Shown one piece after another: positions 49,287 to 58,446 of a stretch of 64,000 nt of DNA. Position numbers and translations under genes: made by a program. The DNA lies in assembly GCF_004762035.2 (NCBI RefSeq), contig NZ_SIJK02000015.1:1-64000 (forward strand), written 5' to 3'. This DNA is from Candidatus Chloroploca mongolica (GTDB lineage: Bacteria; Chloroflexota; Chloroflexia; Chloroflexales; Chloroflexaceae). The notes under the pieces were generated by a model that saw only the letters and a program-made list of their open reading frames with translations, was not told where the DNA came from and did no database searches. The number at the start of each line of letters is the position of its first letter. Positions within the stretch are counted from its first letter, which is position 1.

Positions 49287-50588
49287 ATGGCAAAAGTACA
49301 AAATATCAAAGGCATGCGCGACCATCTGCCCCAGGCGATGTTGCTCCGGCAGCACATCCTGACGGTGGTACAACGCGTCTGCGAGCGTCACGGTTTTGAT
49401 CCACTGCAAACACCGGTGATCGAGTATGCCGAAGTGTTGGAAGGCAAGCTCGGCGACGACGAAAAGCTCATTTACCGGTTTGAAGACCACGGCGGGCGGA
49501 GTTTGGCGCTCCGATATGACCAGACAGTTCCACTTGCCCGGGTGGTCGCGCAGTATGCGGGCCAACTCGCCTTCCCGTGGCGTCGGTACGCCTATGGACC
49601 GAGTTACCGTGGCGAACGTCCGGCCCGTGGGCGCTACCGCGAGTTTTATCAGTTTGATGCCGATATTGTCGGCAGCAGTTCGCCGCTGGCCGACGCCGAG
49701 ATTGTCGCACTCTTGAGTGAGGCGCTCGCCGAACTCGGTTTTCCCGACTTTGTCACCTTGCTCAACCACCGCCAGGTGATCGGCGGCATTGCCCGTGCCA
49801 GTGGCCTCGATGAAGCAGCGGCGGGCGGCGTCTACCGGGCCATTGACAAATTCGACAAACTTGGCGCAAGCGGGGTTGGCGAGGAACTCGTACGAATGGG
49901 CGTCAACGCCACCGCAACTGAGCAGATCCTCACCCTGGTGCAGACCGAAGGTTCACCTGCGACCGTGCTGGCGACCCTGCGTGAGCATCTGGCAGGTGAC
50001 GAGCGAGCCGTGGCCGCGCTTGACAACCTGCACGCAATCATCGCAGCGCTTGATGCCATGGGTGTCCCCCCGGAGCGCTACCGCATCGCCCCACGGCTTG
50101 CCCGTGGGCTCTCGTACTACACCGGGCTTGTCTTCGAGACCATCACCCCGCACTGGCCGGAAGGCTCATTGCTGGGTGGGGGACGGTATGACGAACTGAT
50201 CGGCCAGTTTGCCGGACGCGCCATTCCGACCGTGGGGCTTGCCTTTGGCCTTGATCGCCTGCACGATGTCATGGAAGAGCTAGGGCTAGGCCCCCGCCTG
50301 ACCACAACTGCGATTGCCTTTGTCACGATCTTTGGTTCTGACTTGGCCGGCGAGGCGATGGCACTTGCCAGCGAACTACGTGCTGGCGGGGTCAACACCT
50401 TGTTGAGCCTTGATCCAGCCCAGGGCCTGGGCAAACAATTCAAAGAGGCCGACCGTAAAGGGGCCCGCTATGCCCTCGTGCTTGGCCCCGACGAACGCGA
50501 CCGTGGCGAAGTTGTGATCAAAGACCTGCGCGACGGCAGCCAGCGCAGCGTCGCCCGCGCAGACGTTGTCGCCGCATTGACCCCGTAG
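49287..50588 (+). CDS. hisS: histidyl-tRNA synthetase
   Basis: 433 residues, class II synthetase. 'KGMRDHLPQAMLLRQHILTV' (motif 1 region), 'SLALRYDQTVPLARVVAQY', motif 2 'RYAYGPSYRGERPARGRYRE', the histidine-specific 'LARGLSYYTGLVFET', and motif 3 'GGGRYDELIGQFAG' through 'VGLAFGLDRL' are present. It charges tRNA-His. It is likely the last gene of the recG operon; an array of palindromes starts at its stop codon. Confidence 0.95.
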   Translation: MAKVQNIKGMRDHLPQAMLLRQHILTVVQRVCERHGFDPLQTPVIEYAEVLEGKLGDDEKLIYRFEDHGGRSLALRYDQTVPLARVVAQYAGQLAFPWRRYAYGPSYRGERPARGRYREFYQFDADIVGSSSPLADAEIVALLSEALAELGFPDFVTLLNHRQVIGGIARASGLDEAAAGGVYRAIDKFDKLGASGVGEELVRMGVNATATEQILTLVQTEGSPATVLATLREHLAGDERAVAALDNLHAIIAALDAMGVPPERYRIAPRLARGLSYYTGLVFETITPHWPEGSLLGGGRYDELIGQFAGRAIPTVGLAFGLDRLHDVMEELGLGPRLTTTAIAFVTIFGSDLAGEAMALASELRAGGVNTLLSLDPAQGLGKQFKEADRKGARYALVLGPDERDRGEVVIKDLRDGSQRSVARADVVAALTP

Positions 50589-50908
50589 GGGCACGGCTCG
50601 CCCGTGCCCGGCGTGGGGGGGGCACGGGCGAGCCGTGCCCGTACCGCACCGCCCGTGCCCGGCGTAGGGGGCACGGGCGAGCCGTGCCCGTACCGCGCCG
50701 CCCGTGCCCGCCGTAGGGGGCACGGCTCGCCCGTGCCCGTACCGCACCGCCGTGCCCGGCGTAGGGGCACGGCTTGCCCGTGCCCCTACCGCGCCGCCGT
50801 GCCCGGCGTAGGGGCACGGCGCCGCCGTGCCCGTACAGGGGCACGGCTCGCCCGTGCCCGTACCGCACCGCCGTGCCCGGCGTAGGGGGGCACGGGCGAG
50901 CCGTGCCC
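50589..50908. repeat. array of eight 21-bp palindromes in alternating orientation
   Basis: GGGCACGG-x5-CCGTGCCC type units start at 50589, 50620, 50669, 50718, 50765, 50812, 50839 and 50888, mostly 47-49 bp apart. The stem is constant; the 5-base centre reads CTCGC or its complement GCGAG, so units 2, 3 and 8 are inverted relative to 1, 4 and 7. Unit 5 has CTTGC and unit 6 CGCCG. The region 50589-50965 has no gene. Confidence 0.8.
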
Positions 50909-50965
50909 CTACCGCGCCGCCGTGCCCGGCTTGCCCGTGCTCGGCATCGCCCGAACCCCTGCCAG

Positions 50966-51661: not shown

Positions 51662-54115
51662 ATGAAGCGTGTAAGTCTTTTGGTTCTCATTGCACTGCTC
51701 GGGGCGCTCATCGCGGCCTGTGGTGGTGCTCCCGCAGCCCAGCCGACAGCGGCTCCGGGTGATCCCGCTGCGACGGCCGCGCCCGAGCAGCCCACGACCC
51801 CTCCGGCTGAAGAGCCGACCACGGCTCCGTCTGGTGCAACGATTAAGATTGCTTCACAGAGTCCCCTTAGCGGCCCGCAGGCCGCCCTTGGTACGGGTAT
51901 TCGCAATGGTGCCCAGTTGGCGATTGAGCAACTGGCTCAGCCGTTGATCGATCTCGGCTTTACGGTCGAACTGGCCCCGTTTGACGATCAGGCGCGCGCT
52001 GAGGTTGGCTCGGCCAATGCCAAGAACATCGTCTCGGATCCCGAGATTATGTGTGTTGTTGGTCACCTGAACTCGGGTGTGGCGCTGGCCTCGCTGCCCG
52101 ATTATCAGAATGCCTCGTTGGCGATGGTGTCGCCGGCCAATACCAACCCGAACATCACCGAGGGTGGCTATGGCGTGGCCTTCCGCGTCGTTGGTCGCGA
52201 TGATGTCCAGGGGATCGTGGGCGAGCAGTTTGCCCGCGAAGAGCTTGGCGCTGCCTCGGTCTATATCATTCACGATACGACCGCATACGGCCAGGGTGTA
52301 GCCGAGTTCTTCCGCCTGGCGGCTGAAGAGAATGGCATGGAAGTGCTGGGCTTCGAGGGTACCGAAGAGCAGAGTGATTTCTCGGCGATTCTGACCCCGA
52401 TCCAGGCCGCCAATCCTGACCTGATCTACTTCGGTGGGCTCTATCCGCAGGCTGGCCCGCTCTTCCGCCAGGCCCGCGACCGTGGCATCACGGCGCAGTT
52501 CCTTGGCCCCGATGGTCTGGATAGCCCCGAGTTGGCGACGCTGGCGGGTGATGCCGTTGATGGCATGCACTACACCTCGGTGGCCGCACCGGTGAGCCAG
52601 TTCCCCAATGCAGCCCAGTTTGCAACTGACTACGAGGCGCAGTTTAATGGCACGGCAACACCTTTCTCGGCTCAGTCGTATGATGCCGCTGGGATCTGTA
52701 TTACTGGTATTGCCGCTGCTGCCGAGGCCGCTGGTGGCGTGCCGACCCGTGCCCAGGTGCTTGAAGAGTTGAAGGGTCTGGCTGCGTATGAGGGTATTAC
52801 TGGCGACTATACCTTCAATGAGAATGGCGACCCCAATCCGGCAACCTACTTTGTGCTTCAGGCCAATGTTGCTGATTGGAATGCCAATGCGTTAATTACC
52901 CGCCTCGAAATTGCTCCTCCAGGATCTGAGAGTACGACGACTCCTCCTCCTGCGGCAACCGAGGCTGAGCCACTGGTTGATTTGATTGCTGCGCTTGGGG
53001 CTGAAGTTGCCGATCTGAACCTTGGCACAATCAAGCTTGCGTCGCAGAGCCCGCTGAGTGGCCCGCAGGCCGCGCTTGGTACGGGTATCCGCAATGGCGC
53101 CGAATTGAATGTGGAACAACTCAATGAGTTACTGGCTGATGCTGGTGTGACCTTTGAGTTGGCCCCGTTTGACGATCAGGCTCGTGCTGAGGTTGGCTCG
53201 GCCAATGCCAAGAACATCGTCTCGGATCCCGATGTGCTGTGTGTCGTTGGCCACCTGAACTCGGGTGTGGCGCTGGCCTCGCTGCCCGATTATCAGAATG
53301 CCTCGTTGGCGATGGTGTCGCCGGCCAATACCAACCCGAACATCACCGAGGGTGGCTATGGCGTGGCCTTCCGCGTCGTTGGTCGCGATGATGTCCAGGG
53401 GATCGTGGGCGAGCAGTTTGCCCGCGAAGAGCTTGGCGCTGCCTCGGTCTATATCATTCACGATACGACCGCATACGGCCAGGGTGTAGCCGAGTTCTTC
53501 CGCCTGGCGGCTGAAGAGAATGGCATGGAAGTGCTGGGCTTCGAGGGTACCGAAGAGCAGAGTGATTTCTCGGCGATTCTGACCCCGATCCAGGCCGCCA
53601 ATCCTGACCTGATCTACTTCGGTGGGCTCTATCCGCAGGCTGGCCCGCTCTTCCGCCAGGCCCGCGACCGTGGCATCACGGCGCAGTTCCTTGGCCCCGA
53701 TGGTCTGGATAGCCCCGAGTTGGCGACGCTGGCGGGTGATGCCGTTGATGGCATGCACTACACCTCGGTGGCCGCACCGGTGAGCCAGTTCCCCAATGCA
53801 GCCCAGTTTGCAACTGACTACGAGGCGCAGTTTAATGGGCCTGCTACACCTTTCTCGGCTCAGGCGTATGACTCGGCTGCTTTCTGTGTGGCTGGTATTC
53901 TCCAGGCGGCCGTTGATGCCGCTGCTGCCCCGACGCGTGCCCAGGTGGTTGACGCGATCCGTGGCTTGCCAGCGCTTGGTGGCATTACCGGTGACTACAA
54001 GTTCAATGAGAATGGTGATCCCGAGGTTGCGACCTACTTCGTGCTCCAGGCCAACATTGTTGACTGGAATGAGAATGCCCTGATCACCCGGTTGGATATT
54101 GCGCCGCCGCAATAG
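51662..54115 (+). CDS. tandem-duplicated ABC transporter substrate-binding lipoprotein (LivK type)
   Basis: 817 residues. The lipobox 'ALIAAC' puts the lipidated cysteine at residue 20, followed by a Pro/Thr/Ala linker. Two Peripla_BP_6 (LivK-type) domains follow, beginning at about residues 59 and 455 with nearly the same sequence ('ASQSPLSGPQAALGTGIRNG'). They are offset by exactly 396 codons. Bases 52064-52650 and 53252-53838 appear identical. A fused double binding protein is unusual; LivK is normally ~380 residues with one domain. It heads a five-gene liv-type operon and probably captures branched-chain amino acids or a related ligand. Confidence 0.9.
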   Translation: MKRVSLLVLIALLGALIAACGGAPAAQPTAAPGDPAATAAPEQPTTPPAEEPTTAPSGATIKIASQSPLSGPQAALGTGIRNGAQLAIEQLAQPLIDLGFTVELAPFDDQARAEVGSANAKNIVSDPEIMCVVGHLNSGVALASLPDYQNASLAMVSPANTNPNITEGGYGVAFRVVGRDDVQGIVGEQFAREELGAASVYIIHDTTAYGQGVAEFFRLAAEENGMEVLGFEGTEEQSDFSAILTPIQAANPDLIYFGGLYPQAGPLFRQARDRGITAQFLGPDGLDSPELATLAGDAVDGMHYTSVAAPVSQFPNAAQFATDYEAQFNGTATPFSAQSYDAAGICITGIAAAAEAAGGVPTRAQVLEELKGLAAYEGITGDYTFNENGDPNPATYFVLQANVADWNANALITRLEIAPPGSESTTTPPPAATEAEPLVDLIAALGAEVADLNLGTIKLASQSPLSGPQAALGTGIRNGAELNVEQLNELLADAGVTFELAPFDDQARAEVGSANAKNIVSDPDVLCVVGHLNSGVALASLPDYQNASLAMVSPANTNPNITEGGYGVAFRVVGRDDVQGIVGEQFAREELGAASVYIIHDTTAYGQGVAEFFRLAAEENGMEVLGFEGTEEQSDFSAILTPIQAANPDLIYFGGLYPQAGPLFRQARDRGITAQFLGPDGLDSPELATLAGDAVDGMHYTSVAAPVSQFPNAAQFATDYEAQFNGPATPFSAQAYDSAAFCVAGILQAAVDAAAAPTRAQVVDAIRGLPALGGITGDYKFNENGDPEVATYFVLQANIVDWNENALITRLDIAPPQ

Positions 54116-54130
54116 CTTGTACGCTGTGGC

Positions 54131-54245
54131 CAAGCGTGTGTACCAGGCGCGTCCTGGTCACACGCTTGCTCACCTTCACTCCTGGCCTTGTGCGGTGCTC
54201 CCGCACAACAGTTTGTCGTGCGTGCGGTATGCCGTACGCACGACA
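54131..54245 (+). promoter_or_regulatory. three successive hairpins between the binding-protein and permease genes
   Basis: Stems at 54131-54168 (CAAGCGTGTG...CACACGCTTG with an inner ACCAGG/CCTGGT), 54189-54209 (TTGTGCGG/CCGCACAA) and 54216-54245 (GTCGTGCGT/ACGCACGAC). They lack T-tracts, so they are better explained as mRNA-stabilising or processing structures that keep binding-protein levels above permease levels. Confidence 0.5.
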
Positions 54246-54265
54246 TATATAGTCTGGTGAGGTTC

Positions 54266-55438
54266 ATGGCTGCGGAAGCAAACGCCCAAACGTCAGCTCA
54301 AGCTGTTCGACGCCCCATTGTTGAGACCCTGCGAACCGTCTTTGGCCCGCTTGTTCAGTTGTTGCTCTTTGTGGTTGGCAGTGCCATCGCGTTGAGTTTG
54401 CTGGTGATCCTTCTCTCACTGGTGCAACTTGGCGCACGCCCCGATCTTTTGACCCGGACGCTGACCATTCTCCCACAGGTGCTTATTGATGGTCTGGTGC
54501 GCGGGTTTCTTTTTTCAACCATCGCGCTCGGCTATACGATGGTCTATGGTGTGCTCGAGTTTATTAACTTCGCCCATGGTGAGATCTTTATGGTGGGTGG
54601 TGTCACCGGGGCGGCAGTGGGGCTCTTTCTGGCTAGTATTGGTCTCCTGGAAGGCATGAACCCACTGTTCTTTGTGCTGCTAGTGGTGCTGATCGGGATG
54701 ATCGTCAGTGGGACGCTGGCCGTGACCGTGGAACGAGTCGCCTATCGGCCCTTGCGTGGGACGCCCCGTCTCGTGCCGCTGATTTCAGCGATTGGGGTGT
54801 CGCTGGTGCTCCAGGATGTTGTGCGCTTGATTATGACCAATTCCCCGATGGGTTTCAATGCGCGTTATAATGCCCCTGATTTTGGCCCGCCTATTCGCCT
54901 CTTTGAGATGACCCTCGGTGATCGTCCCGTGCCGATTATTATTAGTCCCAAGGCGTTGGTCTTCATTACCGCTGCGGTGATTATGCTGATCGTGCTCAAT
55001 TATCTGGTCAATGCAACCCGCCTTGGCAAAGCAATTCGGGCGACAGCACAGGATATGCCGACGGCAAGTTTGATGGGCATTAATGTTAATCGCATTATTA
55101 CCCTCACCTTCTTGATCGGTGGGGCCCTGGGTGGTGCCGCTGGTGCGCTCTTTGGTCTCAATGTCGGTACCGTCAACCCCTATATGGGCTTTATTCCTGG
55201 TCTCAAGGCGTTTACCGCAGCGGTGCTCGGTGGTATCGGCAATATTACCGGTGCGATGGTCGGCGGGTTGGTGCTTGGCTTCCTCGAGGCGTTTGTGGCG
55301 TCGTATCTGTCGCTCTTTACCAATGGTGCGCTCTCTGGAGCGGCCTATGCCGATATTGTCGCTTTTAGTATCTTGATTCTGATCCTGATCTTCCGACCCT
55401 CCGGCTTGCTCGGTGAGTCGACAACGCAGAAGGTGTAG
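54266..55438 (+). CDS. livH: branched-chain amino acid ABC transporter permease (LivH type)
   Basis: 390 residues from the ATG at 54266 (MAAEANAQTS). A ~95-residue N-terminal extension with one hydrophobic segment precedes the usual permease ('FSTIALGYTMVYGVLEFINF' and 'AHGEIFMVGGVTGA'). The ABC coupling loop near 'ATAQDMPTASLMGINVNRII' and 'ALGGAAGALFGLNVG' are typical of LivH. It forms the membrane channel with LivM, whose gene starts 2 bp downstream. Confidence 0.92.
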   Translation: MAAEANAQTSAQAVRRPIVETLRTVFGPLVQLLLFVVGSAIALSLLVILLSLVQLGARPDLLTRTLTILPQVLIDGLVRGFLFSTIALGYTMVYGVLEFINFAHGEIFMVGGVTGAAVGLFLASIGLLEGMNPLFFVLLVVLIGMIVSGTLAVTVERVAYRPLRGTPRLVPLISAIGVSLVLQDVVRLIMTNSPMGFNARYNAPDFGPPIRLFEMTLGDRPVPIIISPKALVFITAAVIMLIVLNYLVNATRLGKAIRATAQDMPTASLMGINVNRIITLTFLIGGALGGAAGALFGLNVGTVNPYMGFIPGLKAFTAAVLGGIGNITGAMVGGLVLGFLEAFVASYLSLFTNGALSGAAYADIVAFSILILILIFRPSGLLGESTTQKV

Positions 55439-55440
55439 CT

Positions 55441-56820
55441 ATGGCGACGATGTCTCCACCAACCAATCTCTGGGAGCAGGTGAAGGCTACATTATCGCGT
55501 GGGCCGACCGGCTATAGCTTTCTCGGTCTGTATGCGGCGATCTGTACCTGGCTCTTGCTGACGAATCCGCGGACAAGCCTCAATACCGATATTGCCTTTG
55601 CCCTTTTTCTGCTGCTGCTGCTCATTATTTATCGCTCGCAGGTGGCCCTTGGCTTCAAGGTGGCCCTCGGTGGTGTGATGCTCCTGGTGGTCTTGCCGAT
55701 CTTTGGAACACTCAATCCTTTCTATATTGATGTGGCGACCCAGGCTGGTATCTTTGTGGCGCTGGCCCTGGGGCTCAATGTGGTGGTCGGTTTTGCGGGC
55801 TTGCTTGACCTTGGCTACGTGGCCTTTTTTGCTGTCGGGGCCTATCTCTGGGGGATCTTGAGCACCGAACAGATGACGCTCATGAATCCGGCCTGGAGCC
55901 CGGTGCCGCCGATTATGTTCTACCCTTTTATTTTCCTTGGCCTGATCGTCGGGGCCATTTTCGGTGTGCTCCTTGGCCTCCCGGTGCTGCGCTTGCGCGG
56001 CGACTATCTGGCGATTGTTACCCTCGGCTTTGGTGAGGTAATCCGGGTGCTGGCTAATAACCTTGATCGCCCGATCAATATTACCAATGGCTCGCAGGGT
56101 ATTCGTGGGATTGCACGCCCTCCGCTGATTTTTGCCGATTTTGTGCGCAATACCCTCGGTCTCAACCTCGATGATCAGCAACTCTATCAGCAGTTTTTCT
56201 ACTTTACGGTGCTGCTGATTGTGCTGTTGACTGTGGTGGTAGTGAGTCGCCTCAAGCACTCGCGGATCGGGCGTGCCTGGGAAGCGATCCGTGAGGACGA
56301 AACCGCCGCGATTGCCCAGGGTATTCCGCTGGTGCGCACCAAATTGCTGGCCTTTGCCGTCGGCGCTTCGTTTGCCGGGGCGATGGGCGTGATCTTTGCC
56401 TCCAAGCAGCTCTTCATTAATCCGCCGACCTTCGACCTCATTCGGTCGATCAATATTCTGGCGATGGTCATTCTTGGTGGGATGGGTTCGATTCCTGGGG
56501 TTATGCTTGGGGCCGTGCTGGTGACGATGCTTGATCTGCAGATCCTGCCTCGTTTGGCGACGGTGCTGCGTGATCTGCAGCGCGCTGGTGCGCCGATTCC
56601 GTCGGCTTTTGACCCGACCCAGTATCAGCGCCTCTTCTTTGGTCTGCTGCTGATCTTGATGATGATCTTTCGCCCGACAGGAATTCTTCCCGATGAACGG
56701 CGCAAGGAAGAACTGGTGGAAGATCAGGTGGTAGATTTGCCCCTCGATGATGGCGAAGTTGATGGTGGCCAGCCACCCCCGCCGACCCAGGCTCCGCCCG
56801 GTAGTGGTCCAATTACCTAG
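55441..56820 (+). CDS. livM: branched-chain amino acid ABC transporter permease (LivM type)
   Basis: 459 residues with about ten hydrophobic segments. 'ALGLNVVVGFAGLLDLGYVA' and 'VTLGFGEVIRVLANNLDRPI' with 'GSQGIRGIARPPL' are LivM hallmarks, and 'AIREDETAAIAQGIPLVRTK' is the coupling loop. The final ~45 residues are an acidic, proline-rich tail ('DDGEVDGGQPPPPTQAPPG'), which is not part of the usual family. It partners with LivH. Confidence 0.92.
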   Translation: MATMSPPTNLWEQVKATLSRGPTGYSFLGLYAAICTWLLLTNPRTSLNTDIAFALFLLLLLIIYRSQVALGFKVALGGVMLLVVLPIFGTLNPFYIDVATQAGIFVALALGLNVVVGFAGLLDLGYVAFFAVGAYLWGILSTEQMTLMNPAWSPVPPIMFYPFIFLGLIVGAIFGVLLGLPVLRLRGDYLAIVTLGFGEVIRVLANNLDRPINITNGSQGIRGIARPPLIFADFVRNTLGLNLDDQQLYQQFFYFTVLLIVLLTVVVVSRLKHSRIGRAWEAIREDETAAIAQGIPLVRTKLLAFAVGASFAGAMGVIFASKQLFINPPTFDLIRSINILAMVILGGMGSIPGVMLGAVLVTMLDLQILPRLATVLRDLQRAGAPIPSAFDPTQYQRLFFGLLLILMMIFRPTGILPDERRKEELVEDQVVDLPLDDGEVDGGQPPPPTQAPPGSGPIT

Positions 56821-56845
56821 CTTGTATGATGCGAGAGGAACCGTT

Positions 56846-57625
56846 ATGGCGCTGTTGGAAGCAACCAACATTACCAAAACCTTTGGCGGCTTGACTGCGG
56901 TCAACGATGTGACGTTGATCATCGAAAAGGGCGTGATTGCTAGTGTGATCGGACCCAACGGCGCAGGGAAGACGACCTTTTTTAATATGTTGACCGGGAT
57001 CTACAAGCCCGATAAAGGGGCGATCCTCTTTGATGGCAAGTCGATCGCTGGGACACGCCCGGATCAGATTGCGGCCCTCGGGATGCGTCGGACGTTTCAG
57101 AATATTCGGCTCTTTGATAATATGACGGTGCTCGAAAATGTGCTGGTTGGGATGCATACCCGCCTCCATGTCCCTTTCTGGCAAATTATTGCGAGCGCCC
57201 CTGGTGTCCGTCGTGAAGAGACGAAGGCGCGCGATGAGGCCCGCGAACGCCTTGCCTACGTTGGCCTTGATGCTAAACGCGAAGAGCTTGCCAAGAATTT
57301 ACCCTATGGTGACCAGCGTCGCCTTGAGATTGCCCGTGCGCTCGCTGGTGATCCCAAGTTGATTTTGCTCGATGAGCCGACCGCAGGGATGAATCCCCAG
57401 GAGACCGATGCGGCTACGGGTTTGATTCGCCGCCTCCGCGATGATCTTGGTCTGACTGTGGTGTTGATCGAGCACGATATGCGCCTCGTGATGGCGATTT
57501 CTGAGCGCATTTCGGTGCTCGATTATGGGACGAAGATCGCTGAGGGAGATGCGCATACGATTCGTTCTAATCCGCGGGTGATCGAGGCCTACCTCGGTAA
57601 GGGAGCCGCCGGGGCCGCTGCCTAG
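56846..57625 (+). CDS. livG: branched-chain amino acid ABC transporter ATPase (LivG type)
   Basis: 259 residues from the ATG at 56846 with GAGAGGA upstream. Walker A 'VIGPNGAGKTTFFNMLTGIY', LivG-type signature 'LPYGDQRRLEIARAL' (YGDQR instead of SGGQ) and Walker B 'LILLDEPTAGMNPQE' are present. It energises the transporter together with LivF. It lies 25 bp after livM. Confidence 0.94.
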   Translation: MALLEATNITKTFGGLTAVNDVTLIIEKGVIASVIGPNGAGKTTFFNMLTGIYKPDKGAILFDGKSIAGTRPDQIAALGMRRTFQNIRLFDNMTVLENVLVGMHTRLHVPFWQIIASAPGVRREETKARDEARERLAYVGLDAKREELAKNLPYGDQRRLEIARALAGDPKLILLDEPTAGMNPQETDAATGLIRRLRDDLGLTVVLIEHDMRLVMAISERISVLDYGTKIAEGDAHTIRSNPRVIEAYLGKGAAGAAA

Positions 57626-57729: not shown

Positions 57730-58446
57730 ATGGCTCTACTCAAGCTCGAAGATGTTCATACATACTACGGTAAAATTCATGCCTTAAAGGGTGTTTCCAT
57801 TACTGTCAATAAAGGTGAGATTGTTACCCTGATTGGCTCTAATGGTGCTGGGAAGAGTACGACCCTGCGGACGATCTCAGGGTTGCTTGTGCCTCGCCAG
57901 GGGCAGGTGGTGCTGAATGATGAGCGCATCGATCGCATTCCGTCACACGAGATTGTTAAACGCGGGATTGCGCAGTCGCCCGAGGGCCGTCGGATCTTTC
58001 CCCGTCTGACGGTGCTCGAAAATCTTGAGATGGGCGCGTATCTCCATAGTACACGCAGCGCGATCTATCAAGAGGATCTTGAGCGCGTCTTTACGCTCTT
58101 CCCGCGCCTCCGCGAGCGCGTTTCCCAGAAGGGCGGTACTCTCTCGGGTGGCGAACAGCAGATGCTGGCGATTGGACGTGCCTTGATGACCCGTCCCCAG
58201 GTGCTGTTGCTCGATGAACCTTCCATGGGTCTCGCCCCGGTGCTGGTTGAACAGATTTTTGAGATTATCGAGACGATCAATGCCCAGGGGATGACCGTGC
58301 TGCTCGTTGAGCAAAATGCGCTCCAGGCGCTCGGCATTGCCCACCGTGGCTATGTGCTGCAGAGTGGCCGGATTATTCTTGAGGATGAAGCCAAAGCGCT
58401 GCGTGAAAATGAGACGGTACAGAAGTCGTACCTCGGCCTCGAATAA
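57730..58446 (+). CDS. livF: branched-chain amino acid ABC transporter ATPase (LivF type)
   Basis: 238 residues. Walker A 'LIGSNGAGKSTTLRTISGLL', signature 'LSGGEQQMLAIGRALM' and Walker B 'VLLLDEPSMGLAPVLVEQIF' match LivF. It is the last gene of the operon, separated from livG by 104 bp, and followed by a strong terminator. Confidence 0.95.
   Translation: MALLKLEDVHTYYGKIHALKGVSITVNKGEIVTLIGSNGAGKSTTLRTISGLLVPRQGQVVLNDERIDRIPSHEIVKRGIAQSPEGRRIFPRLTVLENLEMGAYLHSTRSAIYQEDLERVFTLFPRLRERVSQKGGTLSGGEQQMLAIGRALMTRPQVLLLDEPSMGLAPVLVEQIFEIIETINAQGMTVLLVEQNALQALGIAHRGYVLQSGRIILEDEAKALRENETVQKSYLGLE

Follow-up and report, generated by a model that had tools for sequence, protein, structure and literature searches.

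The central portion, of about 600 bp, of the two domains of a tandem substrate-binding protein gene has very probably been homogenised repeatedly through recombinational exchange between the halves of this gene, either by gene conversion or by successive unequal crossovers. The gene lies in the window, that is, the whole stretch of 64,000 nucleotides that was analysed, and its 817-residue product, from a Ca. Chloroploca species (Chloroflexaceae), is inferred from its sequence to be a substrate-binding lipoprotein of the LIV type (type I, HAAT family) with a tandem-duplicated domain, of predicted function and ligand. The features of the locus, all on the forward (+) strand, are the following:

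51662..54115, +, tandem-domain substrate-binding protein gene (ORF, 817 aa; two Peripla_BP_6 stretches, E 8.6e-96)
51662..51721, +, lipoprotein signal peptide with a lipobox-like IAAC (C20) at its end (translation read by eye)
51842..52921, +, domain 1, aa 61-420 (profile match and codon alignment)
52064..52650, +, homogenised tract copy 1, 587 bp (identical-run search)
52922..53029, +, inter-domain linker, aa 421-456 (translation; comparison with relatives)
53030..54109, +, domain 2, aa 457-816 (profile match; predicted model)
53252..53838, +, homogenised tract copy 2, 587 bp (identical-run search)
54188..55438, +, LivH-like permease (profile match)
55441..56820, +, LivM-like permease (profile match)
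56747..57625, +, LivG-like ATPase (as listed, the ORF begins inside livM; the ATG near 56846, MALLEATN, is the more probable start)
57730..58446, +, LivF-like ATPase (profile match)

The profile search matched the 817-aa protein to PF13458 with 322 bits (cut-off 31.7) in two stretches. In the translation, the signal peptide is followed by an A/P/T-rich low-complexity spacer; the linker of 36 residues is composed of an S/T/P-rich stretch and then of a helix-like PLVDLIAALGAEVADLN ahead of domain 2. The structure prediction of the whole two-domain protein was set aside (pLDDT 48.7) and kept solely for the linker helix, which this low-confidence model presents as possible. The model of domain 2 (mean pLDDT 81.5) has the type I periplasmic-binding fold, with LivK (3td9), the leucine-binding protein (1usg) and Atu2422 (3ip5) as its best PDB matches (TM 0.69-0.75). 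Furthermore, each half matches 3ip5 by sequence (E 3.7e-49), so that each domain groups, by sequence and fold, with LivJ/LivK and with Atu2422, a GABA/amino-acid binder. The score against NCBIfam PRK15404 (LivJ/LivK branched-chain substrate-binding proteins) was 395 bits, below the cut-off of 477; hence, the substrate annotation is kept general.

Upstream of the gene, between hisS and a small reverse-strand ORF, window positions 50588-50928 hold a GC-rich array of units of about 49 bp, rich in inverted GGGGCACGGCTCGCCCGTGCCC motifs. The same motif occurs at a few other places in the genome and in both sister genomes, and the reversed control gave 0 matches; the array looks like a genus-level dispersed palindromic repeat.

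The two LIV-type domains are offset by exactly 1188 bp and, as the earlier note had claimed, positions 52064-52650 and 53252-53838 (587 bp) are identical as assembled, third positions included: they represent the sole identical run longer than 50 bp at this offset, and third-position identity between the halves is 1.00 at domain codons 80-260 and about 0.40-0.55 in the C-terminal flank. According to a sequence search of the whole 6.32-Mb genome, the tract pair occupies two places, both on one 116.5-kb contig, with no third copy elsewhere. When the codon columns of the two halves were shuffled, the longest run obtained in 5000 tries was of 122 bp or less, versus the 587 bp observed. At codons 20-40 and 280-360, similarity between the halves is lower (about 0.45-0.75), and dS between them (Nei-Gojobori) is 0.00 in the core, whereas the N and C flanks reach 1.05 and 1.24, respectively. 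These values contradict the alternative that the halves are equally alike throughout. The further claim, that the sequence differs clearly on both sides of the tract, is borne out by these flank values and by the abrupt right edge, but not at the left edge, which is gradual, since identical runs of 47 and 22 bp (51998-52044 and 51972-51993) lie just beside it.

The two halves were then set against those of Ca. Chloroploca asiatica by means of quartet patterns; sites were regarded as concerted if the halves agree within each species and differ between species, and as orthologous if the copies match across species. In the core (codons 60-260), 29 quartet sites were concerted and 0 orthologous (8:0, 13:0 and 8:0 in three successive bins), versus concerted-to-orthologous counts of 1:26 and 1:45 in the outermost flanks (codons 0-60 and 300-360; 2:71 in total), where the orthologues of the two species are more alike than the window's own two halves. 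The trees agree with this: the core protein tree pairs the two window halves with each other and the two C. asiatica halves with each other, and the flank tree joins the first halves of the two species as a terminal pair and likewise the second halves, the latter with a support of 100. Judging from flank orthology, the window and C. asiatica share a single domain duplication.

Compared with C. asiatica, the window has a core dS of 0.20, and compared with Chloroflexus, one of about 0.85; species-specific synonymous states are common to both halves of the gene. Since core dS is 0 between the halves versus 0.20 between the species, and since selection at the protein level cannot remove synonymous differences, DNA has been exchanged after the two species split. 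Provided that the identity of the tract survives the assembly caveat discussed below, the last exchange probably fell in the final tenth of the interval since that split; this estimate is based on about 30 core differences between the species and 0 between the halves, the Poisson term exp(-30f) being 0.05 at f = 0.1. When Viridilinea was used to polarise the core differences between the two species, 24 of 30 sites were ambiguous, and each species received three derived states. Recent homogenisation confined to the domain core, as proposed in the earlier note, is thus strongly upheld by a core dS of 0 against that to the sister species and by the orthologous flanks; gene conversion and unequal crossing-over fit these data alike.

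A search of 61 genomes retrieved ten complete two-domain genes (window included), to which the one from the single-contig genome G276 was added. The double-domain gene was found across Chloroflexaceae; in a phylum-wide sample, the full double form was limited to this family, and the matches elsewhere were single-domain. In nearly all the species harbouring the double gene, the two cores are closer to each other than to the orthologous cores, synonymous sites included, and nearly all species pairs have a core excess of concerted sites, the exception being G022/G036, with hardly any. Within a genus, orthology of copy 1 with copy 1 and of copy 2 with copy 2 is clear in the C-terminal flanks and less clean in the N-terminal ones. 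In the core tree, the halves pair by species in both Chloroploca and Viridilinea; in the flank tree, pairing is by copy in Chloroploca and, for the most part, also in Viridilinea. Each of these two genera shows a single shared duplication.

Perfect runs are also present in the relatives. That of the single-contig Chloroflexus genome G276 (4,684,931 bp) is 629 bp long and lies nearly at the same place as in the window; others measure 224 and 282 bp in the single-contig genome G033, 483 bp in G010 and 482 bp in C. asiatica. Genome G029 (5,258,541 bp) has shorter runs only (91 and 76 bp), yet its core is concerted. In seven out of the ten species tested, the observed run was unmatched by any of 5000 shuffles. 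These data indicate that homogenisation is recurrent, episodic and limited to roughly one stretch; its episodic character is further suggested by Viridilinea G024, which possesses concerted sites and no long identical run. The check proposed in the earlier note, whether the tract is converted independently in relatives, thus gave a positive answer in several species, single-contig genomes included.

The alternative that fares best concerns the route: homogenisation may have proceeded via unequal crossing-over (from two to three to two copies, or from two to one) rather than via gene conversion, which we consider possible but rather unlikely. Since the repeat unit measures 1188 bp, a multiple of 3, every crossover product would be in frame, and domain number does vary: a Chloroflexaceae draft genome (G017) carries a three-domain version of 1232 aa (L042, 7681-11379), and other genomes, Roseiflexaceae-type ones and further members of the phylum among them, have single-domain genes. 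However, the first and third units of the three-domain gene are nearly alike and the middle one is divergent, unlike a simple fresh expansion, and most of the complete genes sampled in these genera have exactly two domains. Single-domain genes also exist within Chloroflexaceae, in g4, g11 and some g5 genomes (L037, L038, L039, L040). A linker-like helix stands before their domain, as it does before domain 2, and the flanks of this single domain group with those of domain 2, which suggests that domain 1 may have been lost in these genes, an ancestral single-domain state being the alternative. An improbable extension of these observations is that the gene acts as a recombinational switch, whose near-perfect in-frame repeat would move cells between one-, two- and three-domain proteins and so alter the number of capture sites per lipoprotein.

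It is very unlikely that the tract is an assembly artefact, with one real domain, or two unlike cores, made identical by a short-read assembler. The tract of 587 bp exceeds short-read length, and scattered differences within such a repeat can be lost in short-read assembly; the C. asiatica assembly was obtained from 150-bp Illumina pairs with SPAdes (PMC6180586). Moreover, the gene of Chloroploca Khr17 consists of the left flank of domain 1, 446 N (L041, 8468-8913) and the right flank of domain 2, the gap corresponding exactly to one repeat interior. The domain-1 C-terminus and the linker are absent from the Khr17 assembly, where the search gave the known pieces only. The gap represents either a collapsed repeat or a real single-domain allele; if the gene were a switch, its single-copy spacing would be a real variant. 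On the other hand, both window copies reside on one contig, with unique and diverged flanks that are orthologous to copies 1 and 2 of C. asiatica, and G276 and G033 have the same architecture and perfect tracts in single contigs; the 629-bp tract of the former implies that the phenomenon is not merely an artefact of assembly. The two-domain form is real in Chloroflexaceae, on the evidence of the single-contig genomes, and the base-exact identity of the window copies is as assembled. The case is also a warning that genes of this type can be collapsed or broken when these bacteria are assembled from short reads.

An independent recent domain duplication in each lineage, without conversion, is even less credible. 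The pairing of the halves by species in the core trees agrees with it, as does the flank tree for Chloroflexus, in which domain 2 is nested among the domain 1 sequences of the same genus and the flanks are partly mixed, so that a separate duplication there is conceivable. Nevertheless, the by-copy pairing of the window and C. asiatica flanks contradicts it within Chloroploca, the C flank of Chloroflexus species also pairs by copy (e.g., 3:25 and 1:28 concerted to orthologous sites), and the linker helix ahead of domain 2 is common to the Chloroploca, Viridilinea, Chloroflexus and Oscillochloris-type genes. This conserved linker suggests that the duplication is probably common to the whole of Chloroflexaceae. 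Finally, strong purifying selection on the protein or on codon usage, keeping the cores alike without recombination, can practically be dismissed, because the core, although it forms the ligand cleft and is conserved at the protein level, has 0 synonymous differences between the halves against the dS values to the sister species and to Chloroflexus, and the species-specific synonymous states present in both halves contradict a reading based on selection only.

In the favoured scenario of recurrent recombination between the halves, the core, kept by selection, would stay long and similar enough for RecA-dependent recombination, and too much divergence would have built up in the codon 20-40 helix and in the final 80 or so residues for them to recombine. 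Recombination would then remain in the core, where alone homology is long enough, and conversion would be self-limiting. Both domains would keep one ligand pocket and deliver the same or a very similar amino acid to LivHMGF, thus doubling the sites per lipoprotein, and the divergent termini might have functions particular to each domain, for instance in docking or spacing.

As for the pocket, the canonical LIV-BP head-group positions, which we take to be Ser, Ala, Thr, Tyr and Asp, map to S78, A99, T101, Y149 and D224 (domain numbering). All five fall inside the 587-bp tract, and in the species checked both halves have the same residues there. Furthermore, livHMGF lies downstream of the double-domain gene at all loci whose length allows this to be seen, relatives included. 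Given these two observations, it can soundly be predicted that two identical pockets feed one ABC importer of the branched-chain-amino-acid type; the likeliest product is a lipoprotein anchored in the membrane, whose two equal capture sites would serve one importer.

Like the LIV-type substrate-binding proteins (LivJ/LivK, T. maritima TM1135 3td9, Agrobacterium Atu2422 3ip5; PF13458), each half is a complete domain by sequence and fold, with livHMGF downstream; the solved relatives listed here are single-domain, whereas the window protein fuses two domains in one lipoprotein. In GlnPQ, tandem substrate-binding domains serve one importer, bind independently and have diverged in specificity (PMC8025302). 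The window protein resembles it in having two tandem binding domains for one importer (predicted in our case), but the GlnPQ domains belong to another class, are fused to the permease and differ in specificity, whereas the fusion described here is a separate protein with identical pockets. The profile search found no permease domain in the 817-aa ORF and, therefore, no GlnPQ-type fusion of a substrate-binding domain with a transmembrane one.

Long-lasting concerted evolution of prokaryotic paralogues has been described between separate genes, along the whole of their length, partial-length cases being left as future work (PMC6053082). As in those paralogues, the copies studied here are closer to each other than to their orthologues, synonymous sites included, and recurrently so across lineages; there, however, whole separate genes are involved, whereas in the window the exchange occurs inside one gene and in the domain core only. 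Tandem binding domains, as in GlnPQ, and concerted evolution are thus combined here within a single gene. Literature searches on tandem substrate-binding proteins with gene conversion, Chloroflexus substrate-binding proteins and bacterial intragenic conversion, whose coverage left out many subscription papers, retrieved nothing directly relevant. The process is already known; its place, partial extent and recurrence are new.

The gene provides a clean, family-wide case in which recombination keeps part of a domain identical in tandem copies and the remainder diverges. It also constitutes a natural experiment on whether selection favours identical pockets or whether these arise as a by-product of recombination limited by homology.
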